Below, piece after piece: positions 1,207-17,035 of a stretch of 41,574 nt of DNA (position 1 is its first letter; each line of letters starts with the position of its first letter). The stretch lies in the IMG/VR virus record IMGVR_UViG_3300046691_000179, positions 1 to 41,574 of that record; one strand, given 5' to 3'. The DNA is from a virus. The notes below the pieces were generated by a model that had not been told where the DNA came from, searched no databases, and saw only the letters and a program-made list of their open reading frames with translations. The translations under genes were made by a program, and so were the position numbers.

Positions 1207-1505
1207 CAAGCCCCCAAGTGTCGCGGCGGCAGGCCGCATGCGATTCTGTCCATGCGGCCGCGCGCGGCTGCGATCCCGATCAGATCGGTCGGGCCGCCGT
1301 CGTCGCGGCGTGGATTGCGAAGAAAAGAAAGCTCGGCATCGAGATAGGCGATGCCGAGATGAAAATTCGCCAGTTGCAGGCGACGGCGGATATGGCTTTC
1401 GTCGCGCAGCAGCAGTGAAAGCGAGCTGCGCAGAAGCCATCGCGCGCGCTGCTGATCGGTTTCGGCGTCGTCAAGCTGATCGACGAACGGAGGGAAAACG
1501 CTCAC
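1206..1505 (-). CDS. Hypothetical protein, 99 aa
   Basis: Small basic protein of unknown function between the PAPS-reductase-like gene and the methyltransferase. It starts at GTG 1505, overlapping the upstream stop as GTGA, and its own stop overlaps the methyltransferase ATG. These 4-base overlaps are the normal gene spacing in this operon and are the main support that it is real. Its centre (about 20-60) looks helical with many Leu and Arg; I see no catalytic motif. Confidence 0.6.
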   Translation of the reverse strand: MSVFPPFVDQLDDAETDQQRARWLLRSSLSLLLRDESHIRRRLQLANFHLGIAYLDAELSFLRNPRRDDGGPTDLIGIAAARGRMDRIACGLPPRHLGA

Positions 1506-2587
1506 GCGCCCTCCTTGATGCGGCTAGCATCTTTCTGCCGGTTCAGTTCGATCAGTTCGGCGTAGCGAGCGTGGACGCTATCGCGATCGAGACACGCGGA
1601 TTGAAAGCCGAACATGGCACTTATGCCACGGCGCACGACAGACAGAATGTCGGCCTCGACATCGCTCAGCATGCGCGTTGGCCAACCCTTGACGTACAGC
1701 ATGCTGGGGGTGATCGCGCTCTCAAGCCGCACTCGCGCGGCGGCCTTAACCTTAGCCTCGGCAAACATGGCCTGTTGATCGACCGGTAAGAGATGCGGGG
1801 CCACATCCCCCAGCCACCGAGACCCCTGAAATGCAAACGTGCTATCGCATTCGAGCTTCACCATTCTTCGGTAAAGTTCGTGCGCCTCTTGCTGCGCGGA
1901 TGCGGCAGTCATATCCGCAATGTTTGACATGATGCACCAGCGGCAGGAAACGCGGCTCATGCCATATTCCCGATAGGCCGGATGCGGCGCTATGCCTTGC
2001 TGATCGATCTCAGCGAAGACTTCGTCGACGCTCCAATCGAGGATAGGGCGCCATGTCCAAATTTGACCACCGGCGTCTTGACCGGCGATGGTAGCCTTCG
2101 CCCGGGCGCTACTTTCCGCGCGGCGAACACCGGTCACATTGATAATGGTTTGCCCCTTGAAACGGCGCTTCAGTTCCGCCGTGATGGGGTGGGTTTTCAG
2201 TTCCGATGTGCAAAAACGCATTCCCGGCGTGGACCAGCAAGGCACCAGGGTAACCGTGGAAAGATCCTCGTAACGCTGGACGCTGGATGCCCATCGGCTT
2301 TCCCATCGCTCCATCAGGCCGCCGGCCTTACGGCGGACTACAATCAATTCGACGCCCAGATGTTCTGCAAGACGCTGACAAACGGGAAGAGACTCTTCCC
2401 ATTCGCCGGAGCCGAGGTCCGCATGTACCAGTACGTGCGGCCCTACATGGCCGAGCTGGTCAAGATAACGGAGTGTTGCCAGCGCGCAGGCCTGGCTGTC
2501 CTTGCCGCCAGAGACGCCAATGGCGACGGGAGCACCGGCTCTAATGAGGTTGTCGATTTCGATTATCGAGCAGATAGCGGTAGTCAT
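1502..2587 (-). CDS. PAPS reductase / ATP-pyrophosphatase family protein
   Basis: 361-residue protein of the adenine nucleotide alpha-hydrolase superfamily. The PP-loop motif SGGKDS near residue 27 binds the ATP pyrophosphate. Two cysteine clusters (CWSTPGMRFC and SRVSCRWC) could hold metal or an Fe-S cluster. The superfamily includes PAPS reductases and DndC-like enzymes, and phage members are common but mostly of unknown substrate. I chose ATG 2587 because it overlaps the stop of the ParB/MT-A70 gene as ATGA; an in-frame ATG at 2635 would overlap that gene by 52 bases. Lying between two methyltransferase genes, it may help modify or protect phage DNA, but sulfur metabolism is equally possible. 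Confidence 0.8.
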   Translation of the reverse strand: MTTAICSIIEIDNLIRAGAPVAIGVSGGKDSQACALATLRYLDQLGHVGPHVLVHADLGSGEWEESLPVCQRLAEHLGVELIVVRRKAGGLMERWESRWASSVQRYEDLSTVTLVPCWSTPGMRFCTSELKTHPITAELKRRFKGQTIINVTGVRRAESSARAKATIAGQDAGGQIWTWRPILDWSVDEVFAEIDQQGIAPHPAYREYGMSRVSCRWCIMSNIADMTAASAQQEAHELYRRMVKLECDSTFAFQGSRWLGDVAPHLLPVDQQAMFAEAKVKAAARVRLESAITPSMLYVKGWPTRMLSDVEADILSVVRRGISAMFGFQSACLDRDSVHARYAELIELNRQKDASRIKEGA

Positions 2588-4128
2588 TCCGCCTCGCTTT
2601 CCGGCGAGCCCGCCTGATTGCCCCAGAAATCCCACTTGCCGTTCAGCCTGATATCGCCGGGCTGCAAACTGTCCTTGCGCTGGAAAAGCTCCAGCTTGCG
2701 CATGTCGGGATAAAGCCGCTCGATCTCGTCGGCGAACCAGACCGGCTTTCGGCTATGCTCGGTTTTCGGTTCGCTGTAGAGGCTGTCCGGCTTTGGCGTA
2801 TAAAGATCGATGCCCGGAAAGTTGCCGCGCTTGCAGATCAGCAGGTGTTCGGTTCGATCACGCACCCATCGGCCCATGCCGATATTGACCTTGTCCCATG
2901 TGATGGCGCTGACATAGTCGAAGCCCCACGCCTCGATGATCTTCAGCGCATGGTGAATCCGGTTCGTGGTGGCCCAGAAATAGAGGACGGCATCCTGCGT
3001 GAACGGGCTGCGCTCGCCTGCGCAAAGCATCATCAGCTCGTCGACTGACATGGATGGATAGCGCAGGCCCTTGTCCTGCCCGGTCTCGTCGCTCCATGCC
3101 TCCTGCTGCCATGGCACGTCGCAGTAGCCGACCGCGAAGGCCGCGCGCGGCATCTCCCCCGCAACCAGCGTGCCGCGCTCCGCAATGGCATTGATCAGCG
3201 AGGTACGGATCATGCGGGAGTGCTGCATCTTCTTGGTGCGGCCCTCCTTCACATCCGCCGCCTTGCGCTTCTCCTCGTCGAGCGCAGCCTCGACATAGAG
3301 CACTTGCCTGTCCTGCGGGATCTGCTTCAGCCGGTCGAGGAACGATCCATTATCGAGGCGAGAACCGCGCAGACGGTGCAGCGCCATGTCCATGATCTTC
3401 TCGCCGCGAGCCGCGTCGCGCTGAATGGCTCGCTCGCTCTGCCCGGTCGCTTCCGCCGTCGCCGCCGTGAAACGCTTGGCAGAGGGTTCGCCAACTTGGC
3501 GAACCCTCGTATGCTGGTTTTCGCCCAGCTCGGTTTCCGGATGCTTGAGCAGATAGATTTCCTTGCGCCGGAAGATGAAGAGTGCCCGGTCGGCCGCCGT
3601 CAGCTCGGCGCGGCAAAGGTTCTCGTCGATCTCCCAAAGCTCACGGTCAAGGTCGTCGCCTTCCTCGTGAAAGCAAAGCACTTGTTTCCAGCCGAGTTGC
3701 ATTGCGGTTTGCAGGCGGTGCAGGCCGGCCGATAACGCCACCCTGGCATCATCGAGCTTGCCGAAGACCGTGATCGGGGTCTTCTGCCCGATCTCCCGAA
3801 AAGATGGCTTCAGCGCGTCAACCTTGGCCTGATCGGCGCCACGCAACCGATATCCGATGTCGATGGTGTCGATATCCCGCCAGATCGCGACCCGCGCTCC
3901 CTGGGGAATCGTCGCTTCGGCTACAGCCGGCGCCGGAAGCTTCTTCCTCGCCAGGTCGCTCGGATACCAAAGATCCGCATCTTTGCTGTCGCGGCGGAGC
4001 ATGCCCTTGACGTTGAGCTTGATGCAGGTCCGGCGCTCATTGTGATCGGCGCTGCGCACCTTGCCGTCGCGCAGGGCAGTGTGCATGATCGCCTGCACGC
4101 GCTGCTGTGCCGTGAAGACCGCATTCAT
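2584..4128 (-). CDS. ParB-like domain fused to MT-A70 adenine methyltransferase
   Basis: 514-residue two-domain protein. Residues about 90-155 resemble the ParB/sulfiredoxin fold, with the phrase SAGLHRLQTAMQLGW. Residues about 330-500 match the MT-A70 N6-adenine methyltransferase family: NIGMGRWVRDRTEHLLICKRG-like core, SRKP, and KLELFQR near the end. The expected catalytic DPPW reads DVPW (in YCDVPW), so the first proline is a valine; activity should be checked. The start overlaps the upstream stop as ATGA. The ParB part probably guides or regulates DNA methylation, since such fusions are frequent in phages. Its place next to a m5C methyltransferase suggests a modification cassette expressed early. 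Confidence 0.85.
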   Translation of the reverse strand: MNAVFTAQQRVQAIMHTALRDGKVRSADHNERRTCIKLNVKGMLRRDSKDADLWYPSDLARKKLPAPAVAEATIPQGARVAIWRDIDTIDIGYRLRGADQAKVDALKPSFREIGQKTPITVFGKLDDARVALSAGLHRLQTAMQLGWKQVLCFHEEGDDLDRELWEIDENLCRAELTAADRALFIFRRKEIYLLKHPETELGENQHTRVRQVGEPSAKRFTAATAEATGQSERAIQRDAARGEKIMDMALHRLRGSRLDNGSFLDRLKQIPQDRQVLYVEAALDEEKRKAADVKEGRTKKMQHSRMIRTSLINAIAERGTLVAGEMPRAAFAVGYCDVPWQQEAWSDETGQDKGLRYPSMSVDELMMLCAGERSPFTQDAVLYFWATTNRIHHALKIIEAWGFDYVSAITWDKVNIGMGRWVRDRTEHLLICKRGNFPGIDLYTPKPDSLYSEPKTEHSRKPVWFADEIERLYPDMRKLELFQRKDSLQPGDIRLNGKWDFWGNQAGSPESEAE

Positions 4129-8645: not shown

Positions 8646-9013
8646 CGGACGCCACTCGCCCCATTCCCAAAAACATCACCGGACGCGCGGCCATGCATGC
8701 CGCAGCAAGGGATATCCCCAGCATGAACAGGGCAATTGCCGACGTCATGGTCGAACGCCATCGGCAGATCGAGGCCGAAGGCTACACCGCGCAGCATGAC
8801 GACCAGTACCGGAACTGCCAGCTGTCATTGGCTGCGGCGGCTTACGCGATGAACGAAGCCTATCCGATGGATAATCCCCCGTGGTTTTGGCCTTGGCCGC
8901 GTCAGGCCTGGAAGCCCAAGGACGAGCGCCGCGATCTCGTGCGCGCCGCAGCACTTCTCATCGCCCGCATCGAGCAGATCGACCGCAAGGGAGCGCAAAA
9001 ACATGGCGCCTAA
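8636..9013 (+). CDS. Conserved phage hypothetical protein, about 125 aa
   Basis: Soluble, helical protein. The phrase VMVERHRQIEAEG, then LAAAAYAMNEAY, then WKPKDERRDLVRAAALLIARIEQIDR is typical of a widespread phage family of unknown function that resembles all-alpha MazG-like pyrophosphatases in outline. Start is uncertain: ATG 8636, or GTG 8642, which overlaps the previous stop as GTGA. Both keep the conserved region. Confidence 0.7.
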   Translation: MPVTDATRPIPKNITGRAAMHAAARDIPSMNRAIADVMVERHRQIEAEGYTAQHDDQYRNCQLSLAAAAYAMNEAYPMDNPPWFWPWPRQAWKPKDERRDLVRAAALLIARIEQIDRKGAQKHGA

Positions 9014-9143
9014 TCTCTCCATCGCAGCCAGCAGACTGCGGCAGGCAAAGCGCAACGGCTTTGTCGGCATCTTCCTGATCATCCTTCTCAACGACCTGCT
9101 GACCGCCTCTGCTGTCGCATTCGCGCTTTTGGGAGGGCACTGA
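9003..9143 (+). CDS. Small single-span membrane protein, 46 aa
   Basis: Too short for most ORF lists. Starts MAPNLSIAASRLRQAKRNG and continues into a hydrophobic segment FVGIFLIILLNDLL, then an Ala-rich tail. ATG 9003 overlaps the end of the preceding gene and its stop is followed after two bases by the next ATG. A basic N-terminus before one membrane helix indicates an inner-membrane protein. Function unknown. Confidence 0.5.
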   Translation: MAPNLSIAASRLRQAKRNGFVGIFLIILLNDLLTASAVAFALLGGH

Positions 9144-9145
9144 CG

Positions 9146-9355
9146 ATGAGTACTTGCCGGTGCGGACTAATCGTTCATGACGGAAATGCGATCGATATCG
9201 AGCGGCTGTATCGCGCTGCCGCCGATGGCGAACCTCGTCGCGAGATCCTTCAAATGATCTACGACATGTTCGGCAGCTCTTGCCAGCTCCGCCCCCCCCT
9301 CGACGAAATGCGGCTTGCCGATCGTTGCCAGCAGGGAAATCGGGCTCATGGCTAA
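9146..9355 (+). CDS. Hypothetical protein, 69 aa
   Basis: Small soluble protein with cysteines at the N-terminus (MSTCRCGLIV) and in the middle (SSCQL and DRCQQ), perhaps metal-binding. ATG 9146 lies 9 bases after GGAGGG. Its end overlaps the start of the beta-clamp gene by 8 bases, so the two are probably coupled. No family recognised. Confidence 0.55.
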   Translation: MSTCRCGLIVHDGNAIDIERLYRAAADGEPRREILQMIYDMFGSSCQLRPPLDEMRLADRCQQGNRAHG

Positions 9356-10496
9356 GCGGCAGACCTATTTCCGCGTCCACCGCAGTCAGCTCCTGCCGGC
9401 GCTCGATGCTGTCTTTGAGGCGGTCGACAAGCGCGCCAAGATCCCGATCCTCGGCAATGTGTTGCTACGTCCCGAAGGCGATGATCTCCGCCTGCGCGCC
9501 ACGGATCTCGACATCGAGATCGAGACCGGTTGCGAGCTTATGGAGATAGTCGAGGCCATGGCCTTTACCGTCAAGGCAGCCGACCTGCGCGACATTGTGC
9601 GCAACCTTCCCGAATCTGCCGAAATCGAATTCATGCAAGGCTCCTATAACGGTCAGATCCGTATCAGCTCAGGCCGCGCCGGTTTCTCGATTTTCAGCCT
9701 GCCCGAGAGCGATTTCCCGTCGATGGCTTCGGCACTCAAGGGCAAGTCTTTCGAGATCTCCATGCCCGAGGTGACGACAGCCATCGCTAAAGTGGCGCAC
9801 GCGGTTCAGACCAGCGAAATCGGCCGGCCGTGGATGATGGGCATCTATATGCACCCGATGGAAGATGAGCGCATCGGCATTGCTGCGCTCGATGGCATCA
9901 GCCTTGCCGCCGTGCAGATCCGCACGGGACAACTTCTCGATTTCCCCGGCATCATCATTCCGCTGAAAACGGCGACCGCCATCCGCAAGCTGTTCGGCGA
10001 AGTGACTGAGCCGGCGAAGATCGAGATCGGCGAGAACCTGATGCGGATCGAGTGCGCCGGCGTCACGCTCCTATCGAAGTTGATCGACGGCATTTTCCCG
10101 TCCGGCTACCTGACTGCCGCACCTGCGGACTACGAGCGCGAGATCTTCGTAACTGTGGCCTCGATGAAGGCCGCCGTCTCGCGTGTCTGCCTGGTGGCCA
10201 CCGAAACAGGCAAGGACGGCATCAAGCTCACTCTTGAGCGGGATCTGATGCGGGTAGAACTGTCGAGCCGCGAAGGCGAGTCGGCGGTCGACTATGTGCC
10301 GATCCAGTACGAGGGCGACACTGGTTTTTCCATCGGCCTAAACAACAACGCGTTGCGCGAGCTGCTGTCCGCGATCGGCACACAGGATGCCATCATCCGT
10401 TTTGGCGGCTCACTGCCCAATGCCGTTTTCTATCCGTCTATCGGCACCAACGAACTTTACGTCATTTCACCCATGAACGCGCGGGGTGCTGAGTGA
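9348..10496 (+). CDS. dnaN: DNA polymerase III beta subunit (sliding clamp)
   Basis: 382-residue phage-encoded beta clamp, close to the bacterial length of about 370. The sequence follows the family through all three repeated domains: VHRSQLLPALDAVFEAVDKR with KIPILGNVLL at the start, RATDLDIEIE, LPESDFP, DGISLAAVQI, and ending near LPNAVFYPS. It would encircle DNA and tether a polymerase during phage replication or recruit host Pol III. ATG 9348 lies after GCAGGG; an in-frame ATG at 9315 would give 11 extra residues. Together with the DnaQ-like gene it gives the phage two Pol III-type functions. Confidence 0.9.
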   Translation: MAKRQTYFRVHRSQLLPALDAVFEAVDKRAKIPILGNVLLRPEGDDLRLRATDLDIEIETGCELMEIVEAMAFTVKAADLRDIVRNLPESAEIEFMQGSYNGQIRISSGRAGFSIFSLPESDFPSMASALKGKSFEISMPEVTTAIAKVAHAVQTSEIGRPWMMGIYMHPMEDERIGIAALDGISLAAVQIRTGQLLDFPGIIIPLKTATAIRKLFGEVTEPAKIEIGENLMRIECAGVTLLSKLIDGIFPSGYLTAAPADYEREIFVTVASMKAAVSRVCLVATETGKDGIKLTLERDLMRVELSSREGESAVDYVPIQYEGDTGFSIGLNNNALRELLSAIGTQDAIIRFGGSLPNAVFYPSIGTNELYVISPMNARGAE

Positions 10497-11044
10497 TGAT
10501 GAACCTCGACCAAGCCAGAACCCTTCTGCCCGAAGCGCGCCACCTTGCAGGCCTCGCCAGTGATCAGTTTGTCGAATCCTACAACACCAAGTCCGGGAAG
10601 GCTGAAATCTGCGTTGTCGATCGGCTGACCGGTGAAGTCGAGCCGATTGCCTTACTGACGATCGATTGCTCCTATGATGATCGGCAGTTGATTCTCAAGG
10701 CGCCGGAACTCCTGCGCGCGTTGGTGGCACTGATCGATGCGGCATCAGCCAAGATCCGTAGTCTTGAGCCTCCTACGAACCGGCAGCAGGGCCAGCAGGA
10801 GAAAACCCCACAGACGGAAGACTTGGCAAGGGATTGCGGCATCAAGTGCAACGACCGCCGTTTCCGCCGCTTCCTCGTCGAGCGTCACAACGTACCCGAC
10901 GTCGCCGACAACGAACGCATCGCCGTTTCCGTCCGCAATATCCTGCGGGTCAAATCACGCAGTCATCTGAACACCGATCCTGCCGCAGCCACCCGTTGGC
11001 TCGAATTCCGCGCGTCTTTCGAAGCTTGGAAAAGCCACGGATGA
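10496..11044 (+). CDS. Conserved phage protein, 182 aa, unknown function
   Basis: Two parts are visible. The N-terminus (about 1-90) is an acidic alpha/beta segment. The C-terminal 75 residues are basic and aromatic (DCGIKCNDRRFRRFLVERHN, then TRWLEFRASFEAW), suggesting nucleic-acid binding. ATG 10496 shares its A with the stop of the clamp gene (TGATG), so it is coupled to it; a GTG at 10493 is also possible. Probably part of the replication group. No named family recognised. Confidence 0.65.
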   Translation: MMNLDQARTLLPEARHLAGLASDQFVESYNTKSGKAEICVVDRLTGEVEPIALLTIDCSYDDRQLILKAPELLRALVALIDAASAKIRSLEPPTNRQQGQQEKTPQTEDLARDCGIKCNDRRFRRFLVERHNVPDVADNERIAVSVRNILRVKSRSHLNTDPAAATRWLEFRASFEAWKSHG

Positions 11045-11143
11045 CATCTGGTGGCAAGTCATCGTCGCATCCCTCGCCTGGGCAGCCTTTGCGATCCTCA
11101 TCGCGCTGATGCCCATCATCTCTCGCAAATGGAGAAACCGGAA

Positions 11144-12472
11144 ATGAGTCGAATTTATCTGGCGTCATCATGGCGCAACCAATACCAACCGGATGCCGTC
11201 GCGATGTTGCGGGCCGCCGGCCATGAAGTCTACGACTTCCGCAATCCGCCCAATGGTATTCCGGGCTTCGCCTGGTCGGAAATCGATCCTGAATGGAAGG
11301 CGTGGAAAGCTTCGCAATATCGCGATCTATTGACAACGCACCCGATCGCTGCGCGCGGATACATGAACGATTTTCGCGGGATGGAGTGGGCCGATACCTG
11401 CGTGCTTCTGTTGCCTTGCGGCCGATCAGCTCACCTTGAAGGTGGCTGGTTTGCCGGTCGCGGCAAACGCCTGATCATCTGGACACATGACGGTGAAGAG
11501 CCGGAGCTGATGGCGCTTATGGCAAATCACATCGTCACGAGCGGCGAGGAACTGCTCTGCGCGCTTGGCAATGGCGCACCCCGTCACAGCGCAAGCCAGA
11601 AGGAGCGCGGCGTATCGAGTATTCGCATAACACGGCCAGATCCTACAGTCTCGATCCTCGTCGCTACCGCAGCGAACGCTATCTCGATCCGCTCCGGAAC
11701 CGTGATCGAGACCGATGACCGTCGGTATCGCTTCGAAACCGATACAGTCGTCAGCCATGGTGACCTGGCGCCGGGACATGATTATGGCATCGGCTTCGAC
11801 CAGACCGGAAACCCCATCGCTATTCCCGCCACATTCAATCCGCTGGAGTCCGGCTTGTTCGCCGGTTTCCATTTCGCTCCGGGCGGATGCGCAGAAGCGC
11901 GCAGCGGTGGGGATACTGTCTCAGCCATCAATCCCTTTTCGCTCTGGGATCTCGACTTTCGTCCCAATTGCCCAGATCCGCGCGGCATGACCTTGGTCGA
12001 AAAAGACGACCATCGGTTCTGGGCCGACATATATCTTCTTGGCACGAACCACAAAGAGCAGGGTACAAGCCGGCATGGCGCCGAGATAGCCGATGGCAAC
12101 TCCTTACCGGTCCTCGATTATCGTACTGCCGTCGACATTTATGCCGACCATGGCAAGCGTCTCCTGGCCTATGACGAATTCCAGACAGCCGCCTTCGGCA
12201 CCACCGAACAGTCATCCGCCGATCACGACCCCAAATCGACCGGCCTCGACGCAGCCCGCACCAGCCGCGTCGGCCTAATGCAGGCGACCGGCAATCTCTG
12301 GGTCTGGGGTACGGACGGTGATCCCGACGACCCGCGCCCGTCGCTCTTCGGCGGATCGTGGCTCGACGGCTCGGACGCCGGCTCCCGGTGCGCGCACTTG
12401 GTCTACTGGCCGGAGAGCTCGAACGAGAGCGTCTCCGCGCGCGGCGGCAGCGACCACCTGAACCTTGCTTAG
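11144..12472 (+). CDS. DGR target protein 1: nucleoside deoxyribosyltransferase-like domain fused to a variable C-type-lectin-like domain
   Basis: 442-residue fusion. Residues 1-142 match phage nucleoside 2-deoxyribosyltransferase-like proteins: RIYLASSWRN (Tyr5), GHEVYDFRNP, EWADTCVLLLPCGRSAHLEG with the putative catalytic Glu99. From about residue 158 to the end it is homologous to the next gene: beta-rich NPFSLWDLDFRP, DPRGM, FWADIYLLGTNH, TGLDAARTSRVGLMQATGNL and the variable tail FGGSWLDGSDAGSR. That half is the CLec/formylglycine-enzyme-like fold used by DGR targets. The frame is open through the junction, where AGGAG (11601-11605) may be the relic of a former ribosome site. ATG 11144 follows GGAG. 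Confidence 0.85.
   Translation: MSRIYLASSWRNQYQPDAVAMLRAAGHEVYDFRNPPNGIPGFAWSEIDPEWKAWKASQYRDLLTTHPIAARGYMNDFRGMEWADTCVLLLPCGRSAHLEGGWFAGRGKRLIIWTHDGEEPELMALMANHIVTSGEELLCALGNGAPRHSASQKERGVSSIRITRPDPTVSILVATAANAISIRSGTVIETDDRRYRFETDTVVSHGDLAPGHDYGIGFDQTGNPIAIPATFNPLESGLFAGFHFAPGGCAEARSGGDTVSAINPFSLWDLDFRPNCPDPRGMTLVEKDDHRFWADIYLLGTNHKEQGTSRHGAEIADGNSLPVLDYRTAVDIYADHGKRLLAYDEFQTAAFGTTEQSSADHDPKSTGLDAARTSRVGLMQATGNLWVWGTDGDPDDPRPSLFGGSWLDGSDAGSRCAHLVYWPESSNESVSARGGSDHLNLA
12334..12454 (+). repeat. DGR variable repeat VR1
   Basis: 121-bp repeat at the 3' end of target gene 1, matching the template at 13889-14009. I count 11 mismatches, of which 10 are at template adenines (changed to C, G or T) and one is at a template C near the left edge. 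Encodes residues about 398-437. The 14-base all-G/C tract at 12435-12448 corresponds to the initiation-of-mutagenic-homing region of known DGRs. Confidence 0.93.
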
Positions 12473-12491
12473 CCAGCGCGAAAGCGCGGGC
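12472..12491 (+). other. GAAA-loop hairpin downstream of VR1
   Basis: Starting in the stop codon, GCCAGCGC-GAAA-GCGCGGGC forms a stem of 7 pairs with one A-G mismatch and a GAAA loop, 18 bases after the repeat. Hairpins or cruciforms of this size with a four-base GAAA-type loop are known to promote retrohoming at VR in the Bordetella phage DGR. None is present at the template. Confidence 0.8.
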
Positions 12492-12524
12492 CTGATTTCC
12501 CAACCGTTTCAAAGGACCAAGATC

Positions 12525-13457
12525 ATGACGGCAGCAGTCGAACTTAAGCAGACTACTATTCACATCCACCGCACCGACCTCGCATATCCCATCCTCGTCG
12601 CCGGTGGCCACACCGCAATCGCCATCCGGGCCGGTACGGTGGTCGAGACCAAGGGCCAGACATACGCCTTTGATGCCGACACTCCCGTTACTCTCGGCGA
12701 GCTGGCGCCAGGACAGGACTATGGCGTGAGCATCGGTCAGGACGGAAAACCCTTCGCTGATATACTCGGGCCACCGAACCCGCTGGACGAAGGGTGGTTT
12801 GCCGGTTTCCATTATGCGCCAGGTGGCTGCGCCGTGGGCAACGCCGGTGGCGATACCATCCCGGCGATCAATCCATTCTCATTATGGGATGTCGATTTCC
12901 GACCGTCCTGCGCCGATCCGCGCGGCATGGCGCTGATCGAGACGGATGGAGGAAAACGCTTCTGGGCTGACATCTATCTGCTTGGCGCCGACCATCACGA
13001 ACACGGCACCAGCCGATACGGCGCAGTCATTGCCGATGGACGTGACCCGCCGATCCGCACCGATGGCAATGGAAAATACGCCAAGCTCGACTACGCCACG
13101 GCTGTCGAGATCTATGCCCACCACGGCAAGAAGCTGCTCGGCGCCGAGGAGTTCTTTGCCGCCGCCTATGGCGTCAAGGAGCGTTGTTCCCGCGGCAAGG
13201 AGCCGACCGTTACCGGCGCACTGGATGATGGTGCCGAGCGCTTCATCAGCAAGCGCGGCCTTTTCGATGCGACCGGAACTATGTGGCAATGGGGCACTGA
13301 CGGCCACCCCGACGACCCGCGCCCGTCCTTCTTCGGCGGGTCGTGGCTCGACGGCTCGAGCGCCGGCTCCCGGTGCGCGGTCTTGGGCGACTGGCCGGGG
13401 CTCTCGAACGGGAGCCTCTCCGCGCGCGGCGGCAGTGACCACCTGAATCCTGCTTAG
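12525..13457 (+). CDS. DGR target protein 2: variable C-type-lectin-like protein
   Basis: 310-residue paralogue of the C-terminal half of the preceding protein, without the deoxyribosyltransferase domain. Shared landmarks are RAGTV, LAPGQDYGVSIGQDGKP, FAGFHYAPGGCA, NPFSLWDVDFRP, DPRGM, FWADIYLLGADHHEHGTSR, the helix HGKKLLGAEEFFAAAYG and the variable tail FGGSWLDGSSAGSR...SARGGSDH. The last 45 residues form the ligand-binding face in such proteins, with variable positions displayed on a stable lectin fold. ATG 12525 follows AAAGGA. The ligand is unknown; no signal peptide is seen, so it would reach the cell surface only as part of a particle or by another route. Confidence 0.9.
   Translation: MTAAVELKQTTIHIHRTDLAYPILVAGGHTAIAIRAGTVVETKGQTYAFDADTPVTLGELAPGQDYGVSIGQDGKPFADILGPPNPLDEGWFAGFHYAPGGCAVGNAGGDTIPAINPFSLWDVDFRPSCADPRGMALIETDGGKRFWADIYLLGADHHEHGTSRYGAVIADGRDPPIRTDGNGKYAKLDYATAVEIYAHHGKKLLGAEEFFAAAYGVKERCSRGKEPTVTGALDDGAERFISKRGLFDATGTMWQWGTDGHPDDPRPSFFGGSWLDGSSAGSRCAVLGDWPGLSNGSLSARGGSDHLNPA
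13319..13439 (+). repeat. DGR variable repeat VR2
   Basis: 121-bp repeat matching the template. I count 17 mismatches, 15 of them at template adenines; the two others are a T to G and a C to T. Identical outcomes to VR1 occur at template positions 13917, 13920, 13945 and 13984, while others differ. The G/C-only tract is at 13420-13433. Confidence 0.93.
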
Positions 13458-13476
13458 CCTGCGCGAAAGCGCGGGC
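13457..13476 (+). other. GAAA-loop hairpin downstream of VR2
   Basis: GCCTGCGC-GAAA-GCGCGGGC forms an 8-pair stem with one G-T pair and a GAAA loop, at the same distance from the repeat and stop codon as the VR1 hairpin. Conservation of both fold and position supports a role in target recognition. Confidence 0.8.
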
Positions 13477-13503
13477 CATTCCTGAAACGGACGATCGCCA
13501 ATC

Positions 13504-13881
13504 ATGACACGCGACGAACATGTGAACGCCCATGACCTGGCGATCGTCGAAAAATACGAGGCAGCTGTGACCTATCTCTATCCGATCATCCAGAATTGCC
13601 CGCGCCGCCATGCGACGCTGCGCGACCGGCTGATCGGACTGATCTTCGACCAGGTCGGCCTGCTTTATCAGGCCGCGAAATCGAAGCAGGCTTCGCGGCT
13701 TTATGCAGCGGACGCCAATCTGGCGACGCTGCGTTTCTGGCTACGCTTCGCGGCCGATCCCAAGCTGAAGGTCATCTCACACCGCCAGCATGCGGTAGCA
13801 CTGCGCTATCTCGCTGAAGCGGGAGCGATGCTCGGCCAATGGATCAAGGCTTCGAAGGGTAACGGGAGGTCGGGGTTATGA
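13504..13881 (+). CDS. avd: DGR accessory variability determinant (Avd)
   Basis: 125-residue basic helical protein between the second target gene and the reverse transcriptase, the usual Avd place. The C-terminal half matches the family: DANLATLRFWLRFAADPKL, then RYLAEAGAMLGQWIKASK. Avd is a four-helix-bundle protein that forms a pentamer, binds the reverse transcriptase and template RNA, and is required for mutagenic retrohoming in the Bordetella phage. Its stop overlaps the next ORF start as ATGA. The ribosome site before ATG 13504 is weak. Confidence 0.88.
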   Translation: MTRDEHVNAHDLAIVEKYEAAVTYLYPIIQNCPRRHATLRDRLIGLIFDQVGLLYQAAKSKQASRLYAADANLATLRFWLRFAADPKLKVISHRQHAVALRYLAEAGAMLGQWIKASKGNGRSGL

Positions 13882-15200
13882 CGTTTTGGCGCCCGTCCAT
13901 CTTCGGCGGATCGTGGATCAACGGCTCGAACGCCGGCTCCCGGTACGCGAACTTGGACTACTGGCCGGAGAACTCGAACGAGAACATCTCCGCGCGCGGC
14001 GGCAGCGACGACCCTTTTCAGGCTCGGCGATGGTCAAGGCCACGTCGGCCATCTTCCACGGACGCAGCGGCGATCTCGCCCCTCGCGTCAGGGTGGTCGG
14101 CCCGACCGTCCGGCTTCGGCGAATACATTGCAAGGTCCGGTACAGCGGGGAGTAGCGGCGATTCTGCCGTCGAAACCCGCGACCGGCATCTGGAGATAGA
14201 TGTCTTGGGAAAGAAGTTTAGAAACCTTATCGGCCCCATCACTGCGGACGCGAACATGCGGCACGCCTTCCGTATGACGTCCCTCGGCAAGCGCCTGACG
14301 CCCGGCTTCCTTGAGTTCAAGGAATTCTCGGCTCTCAATTTGGCCGACCTTGGCGCGGCGATGCGCGATGGTTCGTATCGGCCAGGCGCACCACAGGAGT
14401 TCCGGATATTCGACCCGAAAGAACGGCTGATATCGGCACTCCCGTTCAAGGATCGCATTGCCCAGCACGCGCTTTGCGCGGTGATTGGGCCGATCTTCGA
14501 GGCTACGCTTCTTCCGAACGCCTATGCTTGCCGCGCCGGCAAAGGAACACATGCCGCCGCGATCGCGGTGCAGGCCGACATGCGACGCCTGACGCGCGGC
14601 GGCGAGCCGCTCTATGTCCTCAAGACGGATTTCTCGCGATACTTCGCCAGTATCGAACATGGGGCGCTCTGGCGACTGATCGAGGCGAAGATTTCCTGCC
14701 GTGGCACGCTACGGCTGATCGAAACGATGTTGCCGCGTGATGGTATCGGGATCCCGATCGGGAACCTCACATCGCAGATCTTCGCGAATGTCTACGGCGG
14801 CGTTGTGGATCGCCACCTCCAGCAGGATCTCGGCGAGCGCTACTGGTATCGCTACATGGACGATATCGTTGTGCTCGGTCATTCCCTGGACCATCTGCGG
14901 CGGGTGCGGACATCGATCGAGGATCTGTCGCGCGACCGTCTTGGCCTGCGGTTTTCCAAATGGAGCATTCAGCCGGCAGGGCGCGGCGCGAACTTCGTCG
15001 GCTATCGCATCTGGCCGACACATAAACTGCTGCGCCGTGACAGCGTCGTGCGGGCCAGACGCAAGATCGCGATCTATCGCGCAGTCGGAGAGCACGAGCG
15101 GCTGGAGAAGTTTCTGGCGGCGTGGACCGGGCACGCAAGCTGGGCTGACAGCAGAAATCTGATGAAGAGCATGGGACTTCCAGCGAAAGGTCGCGCCTGA
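13878..15200 (+). CDS. DGR reverse transcriptase
   Basis: RNA-dependent DNA polymerase that copies the template RNA with adenine-specific errors. Motifs, numbered from ATG 13878: SALPFKDRIAQHAL, KTDFSRYFASI (Asp251), GIPIGNLTSQ (the DGR form of motif 4, xGxxxSQ rather than QGxxxSP) and YMDD (326-329). The ORF is 440 residues, but its first 45 codons are the template repeat and the next 60 look unconserved. TTG 14205, preceded by GGAG 9 bases upstream, would give 331 residues, near the usual DGR enzyme length. ATG 13878 overlaps the Avd stop as ATGA. Which start is used is unresolved; the catalytic domain from about 14211 is clear. Confidence 0.93.
   Translation: MTFWRPSIFGGSWINGSNAGSRYANLDYWPENSNENISARGGSDDPFQARRWSRPRRPSSTDAAAISPLASGWSARPSGFGEYIARSGTAGSSGDSAVETRDRHLEIDVLGKKFRNLIGPITADANMRHAFRMTSLGKRLTPGFLEFKEFSALNLADLGAAMRDGSYRPGAPQEFRIFDPKERLISALPFKDRIAQHALCAVIGPIFEATLLPNAYACRAGKGTHAAAIAVQADMRRLTRGGEPLYVLKTDFSRYFASIEHGALWRLIEAKISCRGTLRLIETMLPRDGIGIPIGNLTSQIFANVYGGVVDRHLQQDLGERYWYRYMDDIVVLGHSLDHLRRVRTSIEDLSRDRLGLRFSKWSIQPAGRGANFVGYRIWPTHKLLRRDSVVRARRKIAIYRAVGEHERLEKFLAAWTGHASWADSRNLMKSMGLPAKGRA
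13889..14009 (+). repeat. DGR template repeat TR
   Basis: Donor copy of the 121-bp repeat, invariant by design, just after the Avd stop and inside the 5' end of the reverse transcriptase ORF. It holds 23 adenines, 16 of them changed in at least one variable repeat. Several are in AAC codons, which cannot mutate to stop codons at the first two positions. The G/C-only tract is at 13990-14003; the sequence then diverges from the variable repeats at 14010, and no GAAA hairpin follows. Confidence 0.93.
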
Positions 15201-15568
15201 TGAGTCGCCGCGAGCGTATCCGCGAAAAGATCCTAGCCCGGATCGTCATCGACCCCGTGACTGGCTGCTGGCTCTGGACCGGCCCGACTTCGGGCAATAC
15301 CGGACGCGGTGCCGGCTATCCTCGCATGTCCCTGGGGGGGCAGACCGTCGCGGTTCACATCGCCATGTGGACCAACGAGCACGGCTATATCCCAGGCAAG
15401 AAGGAACTGGACCACGTCTGCCGCAACCGCCTCTGCGTACGGCCGGATCCGGAACACCTGGAGCTGGTTACCCGCAAACGCAACATCCTGCGGCAATGGG
15501 AGGCGCGCAAGGCCGCGACACTGATCGGCCACAACGGCGGCCCGCCGCTTGCTTGCGAGGAGGCCTGA
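15200..15568 (+). CDS. HNH endonuclease
   Basis: 122-residue nuclease coupled to the reverse transcriptase by a TGATG overlap. The core ELDHVCRNRLCVRPDPEHLELVT holds the HNH beta-beta-alpha-metal motif, and the N-terminus GCWLWTGPTSGNTGRGAGYP is typical of phage HNH homing-type proteins. The C-terminus ends in GHNGGPPLA, a tail also seen at the portal protein. It may be a free-standing homing endonuclease or may act in the DGR or integration. It is distinct from the HNH protein near the terminase. Confidence 0.85.
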   Translation: MSRRERIREKILARIVIDPVTGCWLWTGPTSGNTGRGAGYPRMSLGGQTVAVHIAMWTNEHGYIPGKKELDHVCRNRLCVRPDPEHLELVTRKRNILRQWEARKAATLIGHNGGPPLACEEA

Positions 15569-15569
15569 G

Positions 15570-15854
15570 ATGACACCGTCGCCTCTCGACTCTCTCCCTG
15601 TTTTTGCGAACGACCGCGCCATTGCCGAGGCGCTTGTTGGCAAGAAGGATGCATCGAAATGGCTCCATGAGCGCCTACCGGCGCTGGAGCGCGTGCCCGG
15701 CTTCCCTAAAATAGATGCGTTGCATGGCGGACGCCCTGTTCCCTTGATCAAACTTTTCTACGACAACTACTTTGCCCTGCCGGCGAACGGCAAAGGGCTA
15801 CCAGACGGAAAAGAGGATGAGGGAGCATGGAAGAAATCGAAGCGCCCGGCCTGA
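15570..15854 (+). CDS. Excisionase-like winged-helix protein
   Basis: 94-residue protein immediately before the integrase. The phrase ERVPGFPKIDALHGGRPVPL resembles small excisionase/AlpA-like proteins adjacent to integrases in Rhizobiales prophages: a helix-turn-helix preceding a PKIDxLHGGR wing. ATG 15570 directly follows the HNH stop; ATG 15549 would overlap that gene. The end overlaps the integrase by 28 bases. It would bind attP and direct excision. Recognised from motif and context only. Confidence 0.6.
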   Translation: MTPSPLDSLPVFANDRAIAEALVGKKDASKWLHERLPALERVPGFPKIDALHGGRPVPLIKLFYDNYFALPANGKGLPDGKEDEGAWKKSKRPA

Positions 15855-17035
15855 AATGGATAAAGAGGGCCAAAGGCAAGACACCTTATTGGGTCGCCGA
15901 CGAGATCGACGTTAAGAACGGCTACGTGCCGAAGACGGCCAATCTCAGCGCCATCAAAGGCGATCCGGATATGCTGCGCGCCAAATGCAATGTCTTGCAG
16001 GCGGAAATGATGCTCTGGCGTACGGGCTACCGCAGCGAGGCGCTGAACTACGACGGTACGGTCAAATCGCTGCTGAAGATCTACCAGCATCACGAGGAAA
16101 GCCCGTATCGCTTGCTGCGGCCCAGCAGCCTCGTGCCGTACAATCACTATCTCGCAAAACTTGAAGCGCACATCGGGACGCGTCGAATCGACGCCATTAA
16201 TGGCGTCGATATCATGCGGTGGCATAAATTATGGTCCTCGGACGGCAAGCACCTGGCCGCCGCCGCAACTGCACGCGCCGTCTTTACCGCAGCCCTATCG
16301 TTCGGCGTCATGACCAGAACAGCAGGAGCCGCAGACATGCTGGTCATCATGCGGGAAACATCCGAAAAGCTGCCGGGACCACGGCCGCGCGACACGAAAA
16401 TGACGGCGGACCAGATCATTGCGGCTCGCAACGCCGCACACGCAGCCGGACGTCCATCTATGGCGCTTGCCTACGCGCTCGCCTTCGAAACAGTTCTTCG
16501 GCTCTGGGATGTCATCGGACAGTGGTGGCCCATGGATCGCGGTGGCGTGTCCGACATTCTTAACGCTGAGATGGGAACCAAGTGGTTCGGTCTAAGGTGG
16601 GATGACATCGATGACAACTTGCAGCTCGACTACACGCCATCGAAAACTAGCGACACGAGCGGACGCCGGATTGTCTATCCGATGAAAGATGCTCCGATGG
16701 TGATTGAGGAGCTTGCGCACTGGCCGCCAGACAAACGACGCGGCCCCATCATCATTTCAGAGGAATCCGGCTTGCCATACGAACCGCAGGACTTCCGCAG
16801 GTTGTGGGGAAAGGACCGCAAGGCGGCTGGCATCCCATCGAATATATGGGCAAGAGATCTGCGCGCATCCGGCATTTCCGAAGGCCGCGCGAGCGCTGCG
16901 TCTGTGGATGATGTTTCCAAGGTTGCTGGCCACAGCAGCCGACAGATGACAAACGAGGTCTACGATCGCGCTCACATCGAGGCTGCCGAGCGCGTAGCAA
17001 AGAGCCGAAAAGAGCACCGCGAAACAAAGCGGTAA
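15827..17035 (+). CDS. int: Tyrosine site-specific integrase
   Basis: 402-residue phage integrase. Residues about 1-170 are the arm- and core-binding region. The catalytic domain shows the first arginine in FETVLRLWDV, lysine in PSKTSD, box II as RDLRASG, GHSSRQM and the tyrosine nucleophile in TNEVYDRAH about 25 residues from the end. Box II has Arg where His is more usual (HxxR), as is common in alphaproteobacterial prophage integrases. ATG 15827 is preceded by GAGGGAG. It integrates the phage into the host chromosome; the att site probably lies just downstream. Confidence 0.92.
   Translation: MEEIEAPGLKWIKRAKGKTPYWVADEIDVKNGYVPKTANLSAIKGDPDMLRAKCNVLQAEMMLWRTGYRSEALNYDGTVKSLLKIYQHHEESPYRLLRPSSLVPYNHYLAKLEAHIGTRRIDAINGVDIMRWHKLWSSDGKHLAAAATARAVFTAALSFGVMTRTAGAADMLVIMRETSEKLPGPRPRDTKMTADQIIAARNAAHAAGRPSMALAYALAFETVLRLWDVIGQWWPMDRGGVSDILNAEMGTKWFGLRWDDIDDNLQLDYTPSKTSDTSGRRIVYPMKDAPMVIEELAHWPPDKRRGPIIISEESGLPYEPQDFRRLWGKDRKAAGIPSNIWARDLRASGISEGRASAASVDDVSKVAGHSSRQMTNEVYDRAHIEAAERVAKSRKEHRETKR

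Follow-up and report, generated by a model that had tools for sequence, protein, structure and literature searches.

A BPP-1-type diversity-generating retroelement with two Mtd-like targets, one of them fused to a deoxyribosyltransferase-like enzyme, in a temperate siphovirus-like phage

Introduction

The virus record IMG/VR IMGVR_UViG_3300046691_000179 (positions 1 to 41,574, the whole stretch of 41,574 nucleotides analysed here, called the window) contains a cassette in which one template repeat (TR) resembles the ends of two neighbouring genes. The questions raised by this locus are whether a diversity-generating retroelement (DGR) is at work in nature and what its two targets do. The genes of the window include terminase, portal, tape measure, tail-tip protein, repressor, sliding clamp and integrase; therefore, it is taken to derive from a temperate siphovirus-like phage, whose host is probably a member of the Rhizobiales (Rhizobium-type bacteria). 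The locus is very probably a complete, recently active DGR of the BPP-1 type with two paralogous targets resembling the tropism protein Mtd, the first of which (T1) is joined to a deoxyribosyltransferase-like enzyme.

Anatomy of the cassette

As seen in Table 1, all parts of the cassette can be read directly in the window. The cassette lies on the + strand between the clamp gene region and the HNH/integrase genes, with the head and tail genes on the - strand, and it begins with T1 and T2, which have VR1 and VR2 at their respective ends; avd, TR, the spacer RNA and the reverse transcriptase (RT) come next, and then HNH. A scan of 9000-15900 gave no sigma-70 promoter-like site. The clamp gene is the phage's own, and a homologue lies less than about 8 kb from the DGR in several related phages. 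In a DGR-less relative, L021, the HNH gene is found downstream of the deoxyribosyltransferase gene with one small ORF between them.

Table 1. Positions of the DGR components and of other features in the window
Feature	Position	Strand	Description
PAPS-reductase-type gene	1502-2635	-	PAPS-reductase-type domain protein (PF01507), adjoins the ParB/MT-A70 protein
ParB/MT-A70 gene	2584-4128	-	one protein with ParB-like and MT-A70 adenine methyltransferase domains
Sliding clamp gene	9315-10496	+	DNA polymerase III sliding clamp
Target 1 (T1)	11144..12472	+	442-aa fusion: deoxyribosyltransferase-like, residues 1-143; linker, 144-157; Mtd-like variable protein, 158-442
VR1	12334..12454	+	11 mismatches to TR, 10 at A
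G/C-only tract of VR1	12435..12448	+	14 bases, IMH-like
Hairpin after VR1	12472..12491	+	GAAA loop
Target 2 (T2)	12525..13457	+	free-standing Mtd-like variable protein, 310 aa
VR2	13319..13439	+	17 mismatches to TR, 15 at A
G/C-only tract of VR2	13420..13433	+	14 bases
Hairpin after VR2	13457..13476	+	GAAA loop
avd	13504..13881	+	accessory variability protein; PF22296, NF033474
TR	13889..14009	+	template repeat, inside the RT reading frame
DGR spacer RNA	14063..14187	+	Rfam RF03022 Phage_DGR; 64.4 bits, gathering score 50
DGR reverse transcriptase	14205..15200	+	conserved part, TTG start; PF00078, phrog_1423
HNH endonuclease gene	15200..15568	+	PF13392; directly right of the cassette

TR, VR1 and VR2 are 121-bp repeats that align without gaps, and this alignment reproduces the coordinates given for them in the initial annotation of this DNA, as well as its count of 25 out of 28 mismatches at template adenines. 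With 23 A among the 121 bases of TR, the bias is strong in both repeats (hypergeometric p ~9e-8 for VR1 and ~1e-11 for VR2). The same pattern is seen in related cassettes, where 666 of 718 VR mismatches, or ~93%, fall on a TR adenine (58 VRs, hand-summed over the 34 cassette records with both TR and VR).

The protein and DNA elements that had been listed earlier were also recovered. Avd is matched by Pfam bAvd (1.8e-26) and, above cut-off, by NCBIfam DivGenRetAVD; the RT, which carries the motifs IGNLTSQ and YMDD, is of the DGR type and shares 55% identity with BPP-1 Brt. Both VRs contain the same 14-base G/C-only tract, CCGCGCGCGGCGGC, and the GAAA-loop hairpins stand directly 3' of both target stop codons. 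Across the family, 45 of 46 targets have a hairpin behind their stop codon whose four-base loop reads GNNA. Hairpins close to the stop codon have previously been reported for phage DGRs (PMC3240598), and by comparison with that report an IMH with G/C tract and downstream hairpin is present at both targets. The Phage_DGR spacer RNA between TR and RT is an element that the earlier list did not include.

Upstream of the conserved part of RT, its frame stays open across the spacer and TR (13878-14204), back to an ATG at 13878 whose ATGA (13878-13881) overlaps the avd stop. The distance from TR to RT is a multiple of three in 15 of the 18 distinct distances found in the family, and indels keep the frame. 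No protein-level selection was detected on the RT frame through TR and spacer (dN/dS ~0.8, the other frames giving 0.7 and 1.4). One plausible explanation of this open frame is that translation of RT is coupled to that of avd; overlap of TR with the RT ORF is already known (group 3, PMC3521204).

By analogy with BPP-1, an RNA spanning avd, TR and spacer would be the substrate of an Avd-RT complex that makes copying errors opposite adenines. The cDNA would then take the place of VR1 or VR2, with the G/C tract and the hairpin behind it as guides. A single DGR would in this way serve two Mtd-like paralogues, the free-standing T2 and the enzyme-fused T1, whose variable domains may bind ligands on the host surface.

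Divergence from a sister phage

A comparison is provided by a sister contig of 6.6 kb, L004 (IMGVR_UViG_3300046810_000382), which starts inside T1. Outside the repeats, the window and L004 differ at 0/539 sites in T1 upstream of VR1, 6/794 in T2 upstream of VR2 and 6/1,835 in the region after RT. The divergence of the VRs, observed directly in the two sequences, is concentrated at adenines of the template: VR1 differs at 17/121 sites, 14 of them at TR adenines (p 6e-10), and VR2 at 20/121, 19 of them at TR adenines (p 2e-17), giving 33 of 37 differing sites for both VRs. In these natural sequences the VRs are thus 14-17% different, vs 0-0.8% for the target bodies and 2.5% for TR. The earlier impression that the cassette looks active is strengthened by this divergence, which falls almost entirely on template adenines in targets otherwise nearly identical.

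Three TR sites differ between the two phages, at columns 7, 22 and 109. L004 VR1 has all three L004 TR letters, a movement of TR markers into VR1 that can be seen directly, and its 8 further departures from the L004 TR are all at A. L004 VR2 shares only column 22 with that TR, a match that adenine change alone could also produce. From ~13,440 to 15,000 (13440-15000 vs L004 1646-3206) the comparison is a mosaic, with ~2-19% difference per 100 bases and 12% in RT; elsewhere outside the VRs both phages are >99% identical. The avd-TR-RT block of L004 has therefore been exchanged, and the sequences indicate that the DGR machinery is swapped by recombination while the targets remain in place. The simplest account of the VR1 markers is that, once the block had been exchanged, the new TR served to rewrite L004 VR1. 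Additionally, the column 109 letter of L004 is a T that interrupts the 14-base G/C-only tract in both its TR and its VR1, so an unbroken tract would not be strictly needed for homing if the rewriting account is right.

The natural sequences of this one sister contig support recent activity of the DGR in nature. The pair forms a natural experiment, in which the non-adenine markers of a new TR appear in VR1 and homing becomes visible without reads.

Cassette family and the two targets

Searches with T1, RT and the target alignment gathered ~40 related cassette records, whose named hosts are Rhizobium sp. BK602, where the element is in a prophage, Rhizobium sp. CG5 and a Hyphomicrobiales MAG. Two targets occur in 26/38 cassette records of this alphaproteobacterial family, a count of records that includes some near-identical phages and does not represent independent events. 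The suggestion in the initial annotation that two targets are less usual than one therefore holds for DGRs overall, where published figures for the multi-target share are 13-29% (PMC10743442, PMC6642488, PMC3521204), but not for this family.

With the VR left out, a tree of the targets separates a clade of T1 (22 members, support 0.997) from a clade of T2 (23 members, 0.948). The pair is therefore old, and it is the shared template that makes VR1 and VR2 alike; judged from this tree, T1 and T2 represent an old duplication that took place before the family radiated. In L042 a T2-type target comes first in order, and in L126 both targets fall outside the main T1 and T2 clades; rearrangement or separate duplication therefore occurs. 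The family thus offers many cassettes in which one template diversifies two old paralogues, a setting in which to ask why a phage keeps two variable proteins.

Two simpler explanations of the repeats can be weighed against these data. If VR1, VR2 and TR were the product of plain tandem gene duplication and ordinary divergence, the paralogy of T1 and T2 would follow; however, the target bodies share 58% protein identity, vs 86-91% DNA identity of the VRs to TR, the mismatches lie almost all at A, and the paralogues split ahead of the family radiation, which leaves this explanation with practically no weight. It is also very unlikely that the cassette is a relic whose VRs were diversified once and which is inactive now. 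A single genome cannot tell a relic from a working DGR, and three of the VR mismatches are not at adenines, but the strong VR divergence from L004 over almost unchanged target bodies, the uptake of the new TR's markers by L004 VR1 and the intact RT, Avd and spacer RNA all argue for recent activity.

The enzyme fusion in target 1

The initial annotation was right in describing a complete DGR with two diversified targets, and it missed the enzyme fusion and the Mtd homology along with the spacer RNA. The fused frame is read directly in the window: residues 1-143 of T1 form a complete nucleoside-deoxyribosyltransferase-like domain in frame with the VR1 protein. Profile matches of T1 are phrog_12607 (3.9e-56, the enzyme domain), phrog_11262 (1.8e-76) and Pfam mtd_2nd, and in the predicted structure an Mtd fold and a 2'-deoxyribosyltransferase fold are joined by a linker of low confidence. 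For the enzyme domain, Foldseek gives 7o62 with probability 1.0 but E 0.006, Pfam is below cut-off and the PDB profile search gives E 0.09.

Comparison with relatives outlines how the fusion is built. In DGR-less relatives the deoxyribosyltransferase is a standalone gene of ~145 codons, and every residue that is invariant in ten standalone relatives is kept in the fusion; Glu99 is the candidate catalytic residue. In the family's short targets an ATG stands no more than ~13 codons from the aligned start; T1 of the window and T1 of L046/L065 have none. In the window the aligned start is GTA after CAGAAGGAGCGCGGC, and the L011 counterpart is CAGAAGGAACAGGACATG. What used to be the T1 leader (CAGAAGGA..., as in L011) now encodes the linker, and the stop codon of the enzyme is gone. 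Having lost its own start codon, the T1 of the window is the C-terminal half of the deoxyribosyltransferase-like reading frame.

A second fusion was found in L046:5953-7161 (also in L065, L097 and L099), where T1 is joined to an upstream MazG-like domain (phrog_229, 1e-6) right after the DNA clamp gene; this domain runs straight into T1, with GTC at the ATG position. The two upstream enzymes are thus different, yet they meet T1 at almost identical positions. This suggests either that T1 can accept a partner at its N-terminus, so that read-through does no harm when the target has been inserted downstream of an early gene, or that fusion is useful. Other targets (L007, L014, L051 and others) also seemed to have long N-terminal extensions, but these were rejected as fusions; they are read-through of high-GC open frames, with an ATG at each aligned start. 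A second instance of the deoxyribosyltransferase fusion was found neither in viral contigs searched with the junction, where it is confined to one record, nor in 398 genomes of the Rhizobium sp. BK602 family searched with full T1, nor in plasmids searched with T2. No paper mentioning both DGR and deoxyribosyltransferase was found in an open library that covers a minority of subscription journals. A DGR target joined to a nucleotide-handling enzyme is an unusual architecture within a known kind of DGR.

Role of the targets

Sequence, Pfam and fold together identify T1 and T2 as homologues of Mtd. T2 matches the PDB entries 1yu0-1yu4 of Mtd (E ~1e-49) and its fold (Foldseek E 2e-23, TM 0.73), the predicted model being good at residues 8-248 and poor in the VR. 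Both targets align to residues 68-378 of BPP-1 Mtd, with the Mtd second domain (PF21916), the C-type-lectin domain and the C-terminal VR present; no stretch matching the N-terminal part of Mtd (~residues 1-67) was found in T1 or T2. Around 21 cassettes of the family, 137 flanking ORFs have integrase and DNA clamp as their commonest families, and the 25 commonest include no family of head or tail proteins.

The fusion might come from faulty sequencing or assembly, or belong to a gene in decay, with T1 normally translated alone: the deoxyribosyltransferase fusion is known from a single record, the old leader with AAGGAG persists six bases upstream of the GTA, which is one change from GTG, and L004 starts inside T1, so the sister phage leaves the fusion unconfirmed. 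However, a single base change would leave the stop codon of the enzyme unrestored, both halves are intact, and a second cassette, in two assembled contigs (L046/L065), has T1 joined to the MazG-like domain with its ATG lost, although a TTG with upstream AGAAGG could be a start there. This alternative is thus considered unlikely, and the fusion protein is presumably made and functional. By homology to Mtd, a proven tail protein, a role of T1 and T2 as tail adhesins is moderately probable. It fits this role that deeper RT relatives serve long targets with tail-fibre-like N-terminal parts, and that the BPP-1 cassette likewise lies near its attachment site. These same points weigh against a rather unlikely alternative, in which T1 and T2 are binders expressed early or in lysogeny, directed for instance at other phages or at factors of the host, and not virion adhesins. 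An enzyme partner would fit such binders, as would the missing Mtd N-terminal domain, the two separate fusions to nucleotide enzymes, family neighbours that, besides integrase and DNA clamp, include HNH, dNMP phosphatase and regulators, and the position of the cassette, which shares its strand with clamp, HNH and integrase genes while the tail genes are on the other. A narrower proposal is quite improbable, namely that the Mtd-like domains are early binding modules inside the cell, through which fused enzymes (deoxyribosyltransferase, or MazG-like in L046) would gain DGR-evolvable targeting, and are not tail adhesins. Even with the tail-adhesin role preferred, the fused T1 raises the question of what an Mtd-type protein without its N-terminal part does when it is made with an early nucleotide enzyme.

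Comparison with known systems

The DGR of BPP-1 (mtd-avd-TR-brt) is alike in its target-avd-TR-RT order, its spacer RNA, its G/C tract and its GNRA-type hairpin after the stop codon (PMC3240598), and besides the likeness of Brt already given, Mtd is 36% identical with a C-terminal VR. The window differs in having two targets instead of one, both lacking Mtd residues 1-67 and one being enzyme-fused. The BPP-1 cassette is located directly behind bbp9, whereas that of the window lies in a clamp-HNH-integrase region. Also, the RT frame of the window reads TR in the frame of the VR, which is not so in BPP-1.

Use of one TR for several paralogous targets that arose by duplication is shared with other multi-VR DGRs, which constitute 28.6% of DGRs (PMC6642488) and include the DGR of Rhodomicrobium vannielii with 2 VRs (PMC3521204). 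Unlike the multi-VR DGRs in surveys, the two-target arrangement of the window is old and conserved, with one target enzyme-fused. Phages nd4 and nd12 (tentaclins, PMC10743442) likewise carry a phage DGR with one TR and two targets; however, their two targets differ in topology, whereas those of the window are paralogues.
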